Source: Salinispora arenicola | GTDB lineage: Bacteria > Actinomycetota > Actinomycetes > Mycobacteriales > Micromonosporaceae | Length of the DNA: 64,000 nucleotides | Assembly: GCF_006716065.1 (NCBI RefSeq) | Contig: NZ_VFOL01000001.1 | Location: 5,518,001 to 5,582,000, forward strand | Direction of reading: 5' to 3' | In this document: positions 19,628 through 43,483 of the stretch, piece after piece | How the letters are laid out: every line of letters starts with the position of its first letter | Position numbering within the stretch: the stretch's first letter is position 1 | Notes under the pieces: generated by a model | What the model saw: the letters and a program-made list of their open reading frames with translations, nothing else | Database searches by the model: none | What the model was told of the DNA's origin: nothing | Made by a program: the position numbers and the translations under genes

Positions 19628-19827
19628 CTGTGGTTGCGCTCCTTCGCGTCTACGGACCGCGACACGCAGCTGCTCAGACGGCCGGTCTTCGATCGAAGCG
19701 CCCGGGCGGGTCGGCGTGCTGCCGGATGCCCGGGGGCCACTACCGGAGACCGGTACGCTGACCGGCTCCCGGTGGGTCGGGTGGTCGTGCGGCCCTGGTT
19801 GTCGTAGTTCCTGGCGGTGTACGGATC

Positions 19828-39547: not shown

Positions 39548-40750
39548 TCAGGCGGACTCCAGCAGCAGTGAAACGCCCTGGCCGACCCCGACGCACATGG
39601 TGGCCAGTGCCCGCCGGCCACCCCGGCGACGCAGTTCCAGGGCTGCGGTCAGTGCCAACCGGGCACCACTCGCGCCGAGCGGATGCCCCAACGCGATCGC
39701 GCCCCCGTTCGGGTTGACGTGCTCGGCGTCCTCCGGCAGGCCCAGTTCCCGCAGCACCGCCACGGCCTGCGCGGCGAACGCCTCGTTCAGCTCGATCACG
39801 TCCAGGTCGCCCAGTTCCAGGCCCAGCCGGCCGAGAAGCCGGCGGGTGGCCGGCACCGGGCCAACGCCCATGACCCGCGGCGGCACGCCAGCCGCCGCGG
39901 CACCCACGACCCGGGCCATCGGGGTCAGGTCGTACCGCGCGACCGCCGCCTCGGACGCGACGAGCAGGGCCACGGCCCCGTCGTTGACGCCGGAGGAGTT
40001 GCCGGCGGTGATCGTGCCTCCCGCCCGGAACGGCGTGGGCAGTGCGGCCAGCTTCGCCAGCGACGTCTCCCGTGGATGCTCGTCGACCTCGACCAGCGTC
40101 GTGTCCCGGCGGCCGGCGGGAACGCGCACCGGCACGATCTCCTCGGCGAACCGGCCGTCGGCCCGGGCCTTCGCCACGCGCTGCTGGGAGCGGTACGCGA
40201 ACTCGTCCTGCGCGGCGCGCCCGACGCCGTACTCGGCGGCCACGTTCTCCGCGGTCTCCGGCATCGAGTCGATGCCCCACCCCTGCTCCATCAACGGGTT
40301 GACCAGCCGCCAGCCGATGGTGGTGTCGTACATTTCCGCGTTGCGGGAGAACGCGGTCTCGGCCTTGGGCAACACGAACGGTGCCCGACTCATGCTCTCC
40401 ACCCCGCCGGCGACCACCAGGTCGGCCTCGCCGGCGGCGACGGATCGGGCGGCGACGGCGAGGGCGTCCAGGCCGGAGCCGCAGAGCCGGTTGACCGTGC
40501 TGCCGGGTACCTGCTCGGGCAGCCCCCCGAGCAGCGCCGCCATCCGGGCCACGTTGCGGTTGTCCTCGCCGGCCTGGTTCGCGCAGCCAAGGATCACGTC
40601 GTCGGTACGGGCCCAGTCCACCGTCGGGTGCCGCGAGGCCAGCTCCCGGATCACGTGCGCGGCCAGGTCGTCGGGGCGGACGCCGGCGAGCGCGCCAGCG
40701 TACCTCCCAATCGGGGTGCGGACACCGGCCACCAGGTATGCCACGGTCAT
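39548..40750 (-). CDS. Acetyl-CoA acyltransferase (thiolase)
   Basis: 400 residues, a thiolase of the degradative/acetoacetyl type. The nucleophilic cysteine is in NRLCGSGLDALA (near residue 90). The second half contains NEAFAAQAVAVLRELG, the catalytic histidine block NPNGGAIALGHPLGASGARL, and the second cysteine in MCVGVGQGVSLLLE. The closest subfamily by feel is 3-oxoadipyl-CoA/acetyl-CoA thiolase (PcaF-like), but no other ring-cleavage gene is nearby, so substrate remains open. A hairpin follows the stop. Confidence 0.88.
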   Translation of the reverse strand: MTVAYLVAGVRTPIGRYAGALAGVRPDDLAAHVIRELASRHPTVDWARTDDVILGCANQAGEDNRNVARMAALLGGLPEQVPGSTVNRLCGSGLDALAVAARSVAAGEADLVVAGGVESMSRAPFVLPKAETAFSRNAEMYDTTIGWRLVNPLMEQGWGIDSMPETAENVAAEYGVGRAAQDEFAYRSQQRVAKARADGRFAEEIVPVRVPAGRRDTTLVEVDEHPRETSLAKLAALPTPFRAGGTITAGNSSGVNDGAVALLVASEAAVARYDLTPMARVVGAAAAGVPPRVMGVGPVPATRRLLGRLGLELGDLDVIELNEAFAAQAVAVLRELGLPEDAEHVNPNGGAIALGHPLGASGARLALTAALELRRRGGRRALATMCVGVGQGVSLLLESA

Positions 40751-40993
40751 CGCGAGTCCTTCGGGGGTGAGAAGGTCGGGTGGAGCGCCCCGGATCCCGG
40801 GCAGGCTCCGGGGCCAGGATAGTCACGCCGGGACCGGCGAGGTTGGCGGCATGGCGGGGCCCGGTCGAGCTCCGCGGCGCGGCGATACGGCACGCGCCGG
40901 GTCACCAGGCCATCGCCCGAGCCCAACCTGTAAGGAGCGTCACCGGGCCTGCTCCTCCCCAAACACCGGACATCCGCGTAGCGTCGTCCGGCG
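40751..40993. other. Thiolase-symporter intergenic region
   Basis: Divergent promoter space of about 240 bases. The only signal I can name is TAGCGT (40979-40984), a TANNNT-type -10 box nine bases before the leader-peptide ATG. No -35 box is evident. Confidence 0.35.
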
Positions 40994-41083
40994 ATGACCA
41001 ACGTCTGGAATCTCACCGTGCGCCTGTACGTCGATCTTCGGCGGCAGGCCAGCGGTGTCTGTCCGGCGCGGCCGCACCTCTGA
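40994..41083 (+). CDS. Putative cysteine attenuator leader peptide
   Basis: A 29-codon frame, ATG at 40994, stop TGA at 41081-41083. The centre reads LYVDLRRQASGVCPA, matching the actinobacterial leader-peptide family with a conserved VDL-R-R...S..C core that precedes sulfur-assimilation and cysteine-uptake genes. The single Cys codon (TGT, 41060-41062) overlaps the left arm of a hairpin: GTCCGG (41061-41066) can pair with CCGGAC (41109-41114), with extra GGT/ACC pairing just before the symporter start. Ribosome stalling at Cys would keep the start open. TAGCGT nine bases upstream and no Shine-Dalgarno suggest a leaderless transcript. Confidence 0.75.
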   Translation: MTNVWNLTVRLYVDLRRQASGVCPARPHL

Positions 41084-41125
41084 CGCCCGCCCCGACCGAC
41101 CTCCTATTCCGGACTTGGACCCTTC

Positions 41126-42433
41126 ATGCGCAAGATCCCCTTCTCCGTGCAGATCCTGCTCGGCCTCGCCCTCGGTGTGACGCTCGGCTACGTCGCCCGG
41201 ACCAATGACCTGAGCTGGCTGGCCAGTAGCCTCGACACCGTCGGTGGCCTCTTCGTGCAGCTACTCAAGCTCGCCGTGCCACCACTGGTCTTCACCGCCA
41301 TCGTGGTCAGCGTGGTCAGCCTGCGGGGCGTCGCCAACGCCGCCCGGCTGGCCCTGCGGACGCTGCTGTGGTTCGGTGCCACCGCGCTGGTCGCGGTGAG
41401 CGTCGGCATCGGCCTCGGGCTACTCACCAACCCCGGTCGCGGGGTCACCCTGGACACGGCCGGCGCCGCCGCCCCGACCAAGACGGGCTCCTGGACCGAC
41501 TTCCTCACCGGCATCGTCCCGACCAACCCGGTCGGCGCGTTCGTTGAGGGCAACGTCCTCCAGATCGTCTTCCTCGCCCTCGTCGTCGGCGCGGCAGCCC
41601 TGCTGGTCGGCCCGCCCGCGGAACCGTTCGTCGAGCTCAACCGGGCCCTGCTGGGGATCGTCCAGAAGGCCCTGTGGTGGGTGATCCGGCTCGCCCCGAT
41701 CGGAACCCTGGGCCTGATCGGCAACGCCGTCGCCACATACGGCTGGGACCTGCTGGCCCCGCTCGCCCGCTTCACCACCGCCGTCTACGTCGGCTGCGCG
41801 ATCGTGCTGTTCGTCGTCTACCCGCTGCTGTTGGTCGGCGCCGGCCGGCTCAACCCGGTGCGCTTCTTCGCCGGCGCCTGGCCGGCGATCCAGTTGGCCT
41901 TCGTCTCCCGCTCCTCGGTCGGCACCATGCCGGTGACCCAGCGCTCGGTCGAACGGCTCGGTGTCCCCCGCGAGTACGCCTCGTTCGCGGTGCCGTTCGG
42001 CGCCACCACGAAGATGGACGGCTGCGCGGCGATCTACCCGGCCCTGGCCGCGATCTTCGTGGCGCAGGTCTTCGGGGTGGACCTGGGCGTCACCGACTAC
42101 CTGCTGATCGCCTTCGTCTCCGTGGTCGGCTCGGCGGCGACCGCCGGCCTCACCGGTGCGATCGTCATGCTCACGCTGACGCTGAGCACGCTCGGCCTGC
42201 CGCTGGCCGGCGCGGGTCTGCTGCTGGCCATCGACCCTGTCCTGGACATGATCCGCACCGCGACCAACGTCGCCGGGCAGGCCCTCGTGCCGACGATCGT
42301 GGCCTCCCGGGAGGGCATCCTCGACCGGGACGCGTACGACTCGGCCGGCCGGCGGAGCCTGGTCGACCACGACCCGGTGGAGCACGATTCACCGCCCGCC
42401 CGGCGCGAGGAGCCAGCTCCGGCCCTGGCCTGA
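41126..42433 (+). CDS. SDF/DAACS family symporter, probably L-cystine type
   Basis: 435 residues with eight or more membrane helices. It has the family hairpin signature SRSSVGTMPVTQRSVERLG and the TM7 motif TTKMDGCAAIYPALAAIFVAQ. The latter resembles the GCAGIYPA motif I recall from TcyP/YdjN cystine symporters more than the NMDGTALYE of glutamate carriers. The upstream cysteine-containing leader peptide supports cystine uptake. The alternative is a general dicarboxylate/amino-acid symporter. The 41-base C-terminal extension is polar. A strong shared terminator lies at 42490-42518. Confidence 0.8.
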   Translation: MRKIPFSVQILLGLALGVTLGYVARTNDLSWLASSLDTVGGLFVQLLKLAVPPLVFTAIVVSVVSLRGVANAARLALRTLLWFGATALVAVSVGIGLGLLTNPGRGVTLDTAGAAAPTKTGSWTDFLTGIVPTNPVGAFVEGNVLQIVFLALVVGAAALLVGPPAEPFVELNRALLGIVQKALWWVIRLAPIGTLGLIGNAVATYGWDLLAPLARFTTAVYVGCAIVLFVVYPLLLVGAGRLNPVRFFAGAWPAIQLAFVSRSSVGTMPVTQRSVERLGVPREYASFAVPFGATTKMDGCAAIYPALAAIFVAQVFGVDLGVTDYLLIAFVSVVGSAATAGLTGAIVMLTLTLSTLGLPLAGAGLLLAIDPVLDMIRTATNVAGQALVPTIVASREGILDRDAYDSAGRRSLVDHDPVEHDSPPARREEPAPALA

Positions 42434-42559: not shown

Positions 42560-43069
42560 CTACTGCCCTCTGCGCCCGTCGCTACATTCTCGAAGGAGGT
42601 CGGCGTGGCCCAGGTGGCGTGCGTACTCCTCGATCATGTGGACCAAGACCTCACGTAGCTCCACGTCGTTCTGCCCCCGGGTGTCCAGCGCCGTTCGGGC
42701 GACGAACTCGTCGGCGGCATCGCACTCTCGTCTCCACTCCTTGAACGCCAGATCGACGTCGACGTCCGTCGGCATCGGGAAGCTGAACTCCTCGCTGTGT
42801 AGACCGTTGGGGCGGAAGGGTCGGGGGCCGCTGTCGCCCTGCATCACATGCTGGAACCACCCGTGCTCGACCGCGGCCATGTGCCGGACCAGTCCCAGCA
42901 GCGTGAGCTCCGATGGAGGCACCGCGGGACTCGCGAGTTGCTCCGGCGTCAGCCCCGCGCACTTGAGCTGCAGGGTCTGCCGCTGAAAGCGCAGGTAACG
43001 GACCAACACGTCTCGCTCGCCGTGGACCGCACCCTGGTCCCGCGGGTCCTCCGCGGGCGCGACGAACAT
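42560..43069 (-). CDS. DinB-like DUF664 protein
   Basis: 169 residues from the ATG at 43069 (MFVAPAEDPRDQG). It belongs to the DinB/DUF664 four-helix family, many members of which are mycothiol-dependent transferases or detoxification enzymes. Typical blocks are FQRQTLQLKCAGLTPEQLA, PPSELTLLGLVRHMAAVEHGWF with a first histidine ligand, and VLVHMIEEYARHLGHADLLREC with the metal-binding His pair. The reading frame continues upstream without a credible start. Confidence 0.82.
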   Translation of the reverse strand: MFVAPAEDPRDQGAVHGERDVLVRYLRFQRQTLQLKCAGLTPEQLASPAVPPSELTLLGLVRHMAAVEHGWFQHVMQGDSGPRPFRPNGLHSEEFSFPMPTDVDVDLAFKEWRRECDAADEFVARTALDTRGQNDVELREVLVHMIEEYARHLGHADLLRECSDGRRGQ

Positions 43070-43120
43070 GTTCTGCCAGCCGAAACCCTTGCCCGCCCAC
43101 TGATCAGCCACGATCAGAGT

Positions 43121-43143
43121 CTGCCCGTCGCCCAGACGGGCAG
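43121..43143. promoter_or_regulatory. Palindrome between the DUF664 gene and the cREC remnant
   Basis: CTGCCCGTC (43121-43129), loop GCCCA, GACGGGCAG (43135-43143), perfect. Just before it TGATC/GATCA arms also lie near 43101-43116. A candidate operator or hairpin for the divergent DUF664 gene. Confidence 0.4.
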
Positions 43144-43225
43144 CAACGCGACATGCCACGGCAGTCGAAGGACACGCGGCAGATCCACGTGTGCTGGCTA
43201 TGATCATGACTGGCATCATCTTCGG

Positions 43226-43483
43226 GTGGTTGCCCGCCGTACCGTCGTTCTGGTCGATGACCTCCGCTCGTTCGTGGATGGCCGCAGCGCCCAGGTGGCC
43301 CGGACGAGCGCTGCTGGAATCGCACTTCTCGACCGGTACCGGGGCGGGCGGCTGGACGAGCTGTGGCTGGACCACGACTTGGGCGGAGACGACACGATCT
43401 GGCCTGACGCGGTACCTCTGCGGCGGACGCGCGGCTGGAGTACGGCTGGGTCAGAACTTGCATCTCAAGCCGCTGGAGACTGC
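43226..43483 (+). pseudogene. Truncated cREC (cyclic-phosphate processing receiver-like) remnant
   Basis: A GTG-led frame reads VVARRTVVLVDDLRSFVDG and then RYRGGRLDELWLDHDLGGDD, which is the start of a small cREC-type receiver domain. After TIWP the similarity stops abruptly, and no other frame supplies the C-terminal half. The remaining sequence is in frame, without stop, with the MerR gene beginning at 43484. I read it as a domain truncated by deletion, not as an active protein; a fusion is possible but the junction residues look non-functional. Confidence 0.5.

Follow-up and report, generated by a model that had tools for sequence, protein, structure and literature searches.

Cysteine leaders and the Salinispora arenicola locus

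Mycobacterial polycysteine leaderless short ORFs were reportedly described by Canestrari et al. in 2020. According to the accessible parts of several papers, such ORFs provide cysteine-responsive attenuation ahead of sulfur genes (PMC9031893, PMC9094748, PMC13236596), and Cys-rich upstream ORFs had been described earlier (PMC4633059, in part). The accessible text of PMC1262725 presents candidate cys leaders of Mycobacterium, Propionibacterium acnes and Bifidobacterium longum, which are short ORFs with Cys codons near the stop codon and no conserved terminator. Another cysteine uORF attenuator, uORFC-8-2, precedes cysS in Rhodobacterales; in the portion of its description at hand, it has tandem Cys codons, UGC dominates and an intrinsic terminator is present (PMC8632094). 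The NCBIfam model NF042934 ('putative leader peptide', cis_reg_atten) describes leaders whose other matches lie mainly before sulfur-related genes.

The window analysed here, i.e. the whole stretch of 64,000 nucleotides from S. arenicola, contains a 29-codon ORF with an ATG start, MTNVWNLTVRLYVDLRRQASGVCPARPHL, whose stop codon is separated by 42 nt from the ATG of a gene encoding an SDF-family symporter (Table 1). A sequence-only reading had proposed that this ORF, with its one Cys codon, is a leader of the actinobacterial cysteine type controlling the symporter. The ORF, its spacing and its single Cys codon (a TGT) are as proposed, and the type is supported by the resemblance to NF042934 and by the conservation of the peptide before orthologous symporters. 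As in the mycobacterial polycysteine systems, a short ORF, here predicted to be of the leaderless type and to give cysteine-responsive attenuation, stands ahead of a gene, but it has one Cys codon instead of a contiguous run and the gene is a different one, as far as the accessible accounts of those systems go. The candidate cys leaders, in the part of their description cited above, likewise differ by their runs of Cys codons and by their cys or cbs operons. Unlike what is given for uORFC-8-2 in the text at hand, UGU is fixed and no T-run terminator is seen: a search for a classical attenuator found no hairpin with a T run before the symporter, the longest T run of the spacer being two in the window and two to four in 48 distinct spacers.

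Table 1. Features of the leader and symporter locus (window positions) and two further leader-like ORFs of the same genome (C1 positions)
Feature	Position	Strand	Remarks
Thiolase gene	39548-40750	-	Upstream neighbour of leader and symporter
-10-like box TAGCGT (TAnnnT)	40979-40984	+	9 nt before leader ATG
Leader ORF MTNVWNLTVRLYVDLRRQASGVCPARPHL	40994-41083	+	NF042934 22.9 bits, E 4.6e-5; 52/52 Micromonosporaceae loci
P1 left arm (codons 2-6, CCAA-C-GTCTGGAAT)	40998-41011	+	Pairs with pre-start element in window MFE
P2 hairpin inside leader ORF (codons 10-19)	41022-41049	+	Folds in 48/48 distinct leaders
Sensing Cys codon 23, TGT	41060-41062	+	9 codons past Asp of VDL motif
P1 right arm ATTCCGGAC-TTGG	41106-41118	+	Before symporter start
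SDF-family symporter gene	41126-42433	+	435 aa; PF00375 343 bits
Mycothiol-S-transferase/DinB-type gene	42560-43375	-	Downstream neighbour facing symporter; PF04978 match
L002 leader-like ORF	C1:1001460-1001513	-	Before rhodanese-domain protein; 39.4 bits; TGT at sensing position
L004 leader-like ORF	C1:2583420-2583470	+	Before nitrite/sulfite reductase; weak match, 14.9 bits; TGT at sensing position

The box TAnnnT, reported as the -10 motif of Streptomyces lividans in the accessible part of PMC8079986, occurs in 47 of 48 distinct Micromonosporaceae leader regions at a distance of exactly 9 nt upstream of the ATG. The transcript is therefore predicted to start at or next to the leader ATG, i.e. 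to be leaderless. The leader and symporter site is without Rfam match; the sole Rfam match above gathering score in the 64-kb window is an Actino-pnp cis-regulatory RNA (19681-19754, minus strand, 51.7 bits).

The closest named relatives of the symporter belong to Salinispora, and the symporter was found in 29 of the 36 same-genus genomes searched. Within its own genome (5.63 Mb, one contig), the protein gives one match, itself only (E 0.001). Cysteine is a component of mycothiol, and the position of a mycothiol-S-transferase gene beside the symporter may be more than chance. The start of the symporter gene varies among the 48 distinct Micromonosporaceae loci (window and L010-L060): those of the window, L009, L016, L038 and L039, five in all, have ATG at MRKIPF, and the rest have CTG, CTT or CTA at this position and an ATG 12 nt upstream (MASA, MPFG or similar).

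The conservation of the peptide upstream of orthologous symporters, proposed with the sequence-only reading as a test of it, was found. Each of the 52 Micromonosporaceae loci studied has a leader ahead of the symporter; they comprise the window, 22 named records and 29 further relatives, with some species present twice, and give 48 distinct regions. All 52 fit the pattern MTN[VIL]W.LT[VE]RLYVDLR[RL]QAS with Cys at codon 23. Outside this family, 45 of 58 loci carry a leader, mostly in multi-Cys forms. A strict pattern finds one in 66 of the best 80 named symporter loci, and a relaxed pattern adds L090, which makes 67; the remaining 13, six of them from Kitasatospora, have none within 420 nt upstream by the strict pattern and 600 nt by the relaxed one. 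Symporters without leader occur in Kitasatospora (L061, L067, L069, L071, L082, L085) and Streptomyces (L059, L062), where the control may have been lost or replaced. Judged by these comparisons, the leader ORF is real, far above chance, and very probably reports cysteine shortage ahead of the symporter.

The leader family and its UGU codon

Residues 7-23 of the leader align with profile positions 3-19 of the 19 positions of NF042934 and carry its motif R..VDL.R followed by Cys nine residues after Asp (R10, V13-D14-L15, R17 and Cys23). As the score is below the curated cut-off of 27 bits, the leader is called here a variant and is not filed as a formal member; it would work like one. It differs from NF042934 by this score, its single Cys, its SDF symporter target and two pairings of Micromonosporaceae, named P1 and P2. 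Searching the own genome with the profile gave seven matches at E <=10, three of which are plausible as leaders: that of the symporter, L002 (above the cut-off) and the weak L004.

In a class-wide sample, NF042934 matches at E 5e-4 or better occur in 135 of 196 genomes. The wider-family set comprises 115 loci (L002, L004, 53 from profile searches and 60 regions chosen by us); the motif is present in 105 of them, 91 being distinct, and absent from 10. Arg four residues before Asp (D-4), Asp itself, Arg at D+3 and Cys at D+9 are found in all 91 distinct motifs, which is partly a product of selection. The downstream gene, taken as the longest ORF starting at most 350 nt downstream and kept if it encoded at least 120 aa, could be assigned to 85 of the 91 leaders. 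Among the six leaders dropped by the 120-aa limit, L126, L142 and L180 are followed by short ORFs containing all or the first part of MAIEVRIPTILR, which we take to be CysO/ThiS-like. In the 25 of 27 Pfam families listed for the 85 ORFs, the commonest are rhodanese (17), nitrite/sulfite reductase (15) and DUF4395 (13), followed by PAPS reductase, family 5 binding proteins and luciferase-like monooxygenases (four each), and more rarely SDF, PALP enzymes and sulfatases (two each) and APS kinase (one). Leaders of the NF042934 type thus precede mainly sulfur-related genes. The two SDF symporters in this set (L137 and L179) come from genomes of other families than that of the window.

The Cys at Asp+9 is encoded by TGT in all 85 distinct symporter leaders (43/43 in Micromonosporaceae and 42/42 in others), and the L090 leader, found by the relaxed pattern, also has TGT at this position. 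The symporter genes themselves use TGC 217 times and TGT once (first 400 codons of 110 loci, duplicates kept), and eight genes of the window, including the symporter, use TGC 24 times and TGT seven times. The same holds for the wider family, in which 90 of 91 distinct leaders have TGT at the sensing position and the downstream ORFs use TGT 39 and TGC 200 times. L129 (VDLCRLGGCCCLCR) is the sole leader of this set with TGC there. The other Cys codons of the leaders are mixed (TGC 81 and TGT 36 in the symporter set, TGC 110 and TGT 32 in the wider set). At Asp+2 they are mostly TGC (36:2 and 41:3, respectively); in the symporter set, Asp+4 has TGT in 19 of 29 cases, and the Cys codons two and three past the sensing Cys are TGT in 12 of 12. 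The enrichment in TGT therefore extends beyond the sensing position, where it is near absolute. The codons adjoining the sensing Cys vary at their third positions.

The Cys residue itself was partly selected by the HMM and the search pattern. A protein model is blind to TGT versus TGC, so that the codon bias at the sensing position was not created by the selection of loci; its P values (1e-28 to 1e-75) ignore phylogeny. Since P1 and P2 are not shared across lineages, a common RNA pairing is unlikely as the cause of the fixed TGT. The tRNA-Cys has the anticodon GCA and reads UGU by wobble, and the simplest reading is that a decoding property of UGU is involved. Among the matches listed in our literature search, mostly open-access papers, no description was found of a fixed UGU in such leaders or of a leader before this symporter.

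The conserved residues also suggest another way of sensing, in which the leader would be an arrest peptide: the nascent chain in the tunnel would respond to free cysteine or to the state of the UGU codon, as TnaC responds to tryptophan, and not simply to the lack of charged tRNA. Arg at D-4, Asp and Arg at D+3 are kept in the wider family with freely varying codons, and Streptomyces leaders keep RL[HY]VDL although they do not keep the P2 hairpin. However, the invariance of the residues results in part from how the loci were found, by an HMM and a regular expression rewarding Arg at D+3, and this residue is Leu in 30 of 48 Micromonosporaceae symporter leaders. Such a mechanism appears possible but rather unlikely.

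Folding of the leader RNA and access to the symporter start

The leader region of the window has an MFE of -64.4 kcal/mol (z -3.37), and none of 200 shuffles was as good. In this fold, leader nucleotides 5-8 and 10-18 (40998-41001 and 41003-41011) pair with the element before the symporter start to form P1, and the leader AUGA pairs with UCAU over the symporter start. The P1 right arm of the relatives consists of CmGA(C/T) shortly before TTGGA or a close form; the simple core pattern is present in 42 of the 48 distinct leaders and lacking from six. Against the 32 nt that precede the symporter start, codons 1-7 show more complementarity than their own shuffle mean in all 48 (mean z -2.62), and cognate pairs are better than non-cognate ones (p 0.0016). 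No comparable pre-start excess is seen for six other leader windows, the next being codons 19-25 (z -0.70). Cognate p values of this kind deserve limited trust, as shown by codons 10-16, which give p 0.0068 with no excess over shuffles. Covariation in the P1 extension was not significant (p 0.16; 0.097 for distinct combinations). P1 was rejected as a general feature of SDF leaders, as no window stands out in the 42 other distinct ones; this indicates that the output fold is lineage-specific.

The alignment in which the P2 hairpin was examined holds 46 distinct leaders; of the 48, L056 and L058 were left out for their long spacers. In this alignment, 96.2% of the P2 cells pair, and 96.5% of those of P2 plus the CCAA/TTGG part, versus 16-38% when slid. 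No P2 covariation beyond that of shuffles was found in these 46 leaders, because the sequences hardly vary. Codon 17 is CGG only together with TAC at codon 12 (18:0, versus 9:21 otherwise; p 6.6e-7 with phylogeny ignored), as a shifted pairing would favour. P2 was rejected for Streptomyces leaders, which have other folds, and a hairpin like P2 appears in Streptoalloteichus L068. Comparison within Micromonosporaceae shows both a hairpin over codons 10-19 and that codons 2-5 are complementary to the pre-start element.

For the 48 leaders, the energy cost of making the symporter start accessible was computed with rigid ribosome footprints on the leader, which gives thermodynamics and not a measurement. 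It is 10.48 kcal/mol on average (16.7 in the window) with no ribosome. The sequence-only reading had held that a stall at Cys frees the start, which the computation does not support: one ribosome at the Cys stall leaves 10.05 kcal/mol (15.8 in the window), and the value is 9.81 (15.4) with one more ribosome following it. When the sole ribosome sits at the leader start, the cost drops to 7.89 kcal/mol (9.0 in the window); with a second one at the Cys stall it is 7.97 (10.7), and with three queued ribosomes (P sites at codons 22, 12 and 2) it is 7.69 (9.9). Compared with no ribosome, the queue lowers it by more than 1 kcal/mol in 37 of 48 leaders. In this model, the symporter start opens once any ribosome covers the 5' end. 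A single initiating ribosome opens it as well as the queue does, so that the computation alone gives no preference to the stall; since the Cys stall alone does not open it, we infer the queue step. The distance from the ATG to the Cys codon is 22 codons in 48 of 48 leaders, so that the room fits two further ribosomes behind a stalled one.

On balance, we consider it probable that the 5' end of a leaderless mRNA, with its cysteine-sensing leader ORF, controls the translation of the only SDF symporter of the genome. Comparison among relatives supports the ORF, its position, the peptide motif (Arg, VDL and Cys nine residues after Asp), the TGT codon and the placement of the -10 box. The control would operate as follows. 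With enough cysteine, the ribosome would clear the leader, the 5' end would pair again with the pre-start element and the symporter would be shut. When Cys-tRNA is short, the ribosome would stall with UGU in its A site, probably helped by the conserved peptide around the Cys codon, and would melt the hairpin. Ribosomes arriving behind it, with P sites near codons 12 and 2 (10 codons per ribosome), would then cover the 5' arm, leaving the symporter start open.

The output could instead be Rho-dependent termination, with a fast ribosome leaving the leader so that a C-rich and G-poor spacer loads Rho, and a stalled ribosome preventing it. C makes up 47% and G 20% of the 48 distinct Micromonosporaceae spacers (41084-41125 in the window), which makes the spacer a possible Rho-loading stretch, and 34 of 47 distinct Micromonosporaceae loci have more than twice as much C as G (spacer counted to the aligned codon 1). 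Rho has also been proposed for the mycobacterial cys leaders in the accessible text of PMC1262725. But the spacer is short (42 nt in the window) and would stay bare when the ribosome stalls at codon 23, and outside Micromonosporaceae C exceeds twice G in only five of 42 cases. Rho-dependent control of the symporter is thus improbable.

Slightly more improbable still is the switch of the sequence-only reading, in which GTCCGG at the Cys codon sequesters the pre-start CCGGAC until a ribosome that stalls at Cys covers this arm and makes the start available. The inverted repeat exists in the window (41061-41066 and 41109-41114, with GGT and ACC outside), and codons 19-25 are somewhat complementary to the pre-start region, 39 of 48 leaders scoring below the mean of their own shuffles. 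However, the arm has no cognate advantage across relatives (-16.75 kcal/mol for cognate and -17.07 for non-cognate pairs, permutation p 0.90; p 0.63 for the window of codons 19-25), and the fold of the window pairs CCGGAC with leader codons 4-5. With the Cys region masked, the mean opening energy falls by only 0.43 kcal/mol; the drop is above 1 kcal/mol in 12 of 48 leaders, and a rise above 1 kcal/mol is seen in five of 48. The pairing was therefore rejected as a conserved switch, and the pairing of the 5' end (codons 2-5) with the pre-start element appears better supported.

That the ORF arose by chance, or is an ordinary conserved and untranslated 5' UTR, is highly improbable given its in-frame conservation, the match to the family HMM, the recurrence before sulfur genes across the class and the placement of the -10 box, although divergence at fourfold sites, somewhat lower in the leader (0.155) than in the symporter (0.227), reveals a constraint at the DNA level. 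Less in favour of the cysteine-sensing leader is its amino-acid divergence (0.112), only a little lower than the 0.143 of symporter codons 7-46.

Substrate of the symporter and bearing on actinobacteria

The sequence-only reading had also named cystine as the substrate and the TM7 motif of the symporter as cystine-type. The motif GCAxxYPA is indeed common to the symporter and to the E. coli cystine symporter TcyP (YdjN), of the same SDF family, and is not found in GltP, DctA and SstT, which are one residue shorter there; its use as a mark of TcyP is a working assumption from one TcyP sequence. Overall similarity, on the other hand, is no closer to TcyP: identity is about 30-32% to TcyP, 30% to GltP, 24% to DctA and 26% to SstT, and GltP scores higher in BLASTP (174 versus 144 bits). 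The HP1 sequence SRSS, also common to the symporter and TcyP, is given no weight, since SstT has RSS there and GltPh has a similar Arg in the HP1 region. A reference tree of SDF proteins was uninformative, TcyP forming a long, unplaced branch, and NCBIfam gave no model for TcyP, the E. coli protein matching nothing there above cut-off. By sequence, the solved structures nearest to the symporter are aspartate/glutamate transporters, and most of the best 120 named matches bear the name 'dicarboxylate/amino acid:cation symporter'. Its substrate is most likely cystine or another sulfur amino acid, as judged from the genes that share such leaders; cystine is plausible mainly because of this regulon.

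A broader proposal, to which we give somewhat less than even confidence, is that these leaders form a class-wide actinobacterial cysteine sensor, in which stalling would require UGU instead of UGC inside a conserved motif of the nascent peptide, and in which the RNA output is freely swapped between lineages. In Micromonosporaceae, this output would be a fold in which the extreme 5' end of the leaderless mRNA shuts the symporter start and which queued ribosomes would open.

The near-absolute UGU, where the symporter and neighbouring genes prefer UGC, suggests that the synonymous Cys codons are not equivalent for sensing, and it bears on how cysteine attenuation works in actinobacteria generally. 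The leader also ties a widespread actinomycete 'dicarboxylate/amino acid:cation symporter' to cysteine supply, which gives this transporter a testable substrate.
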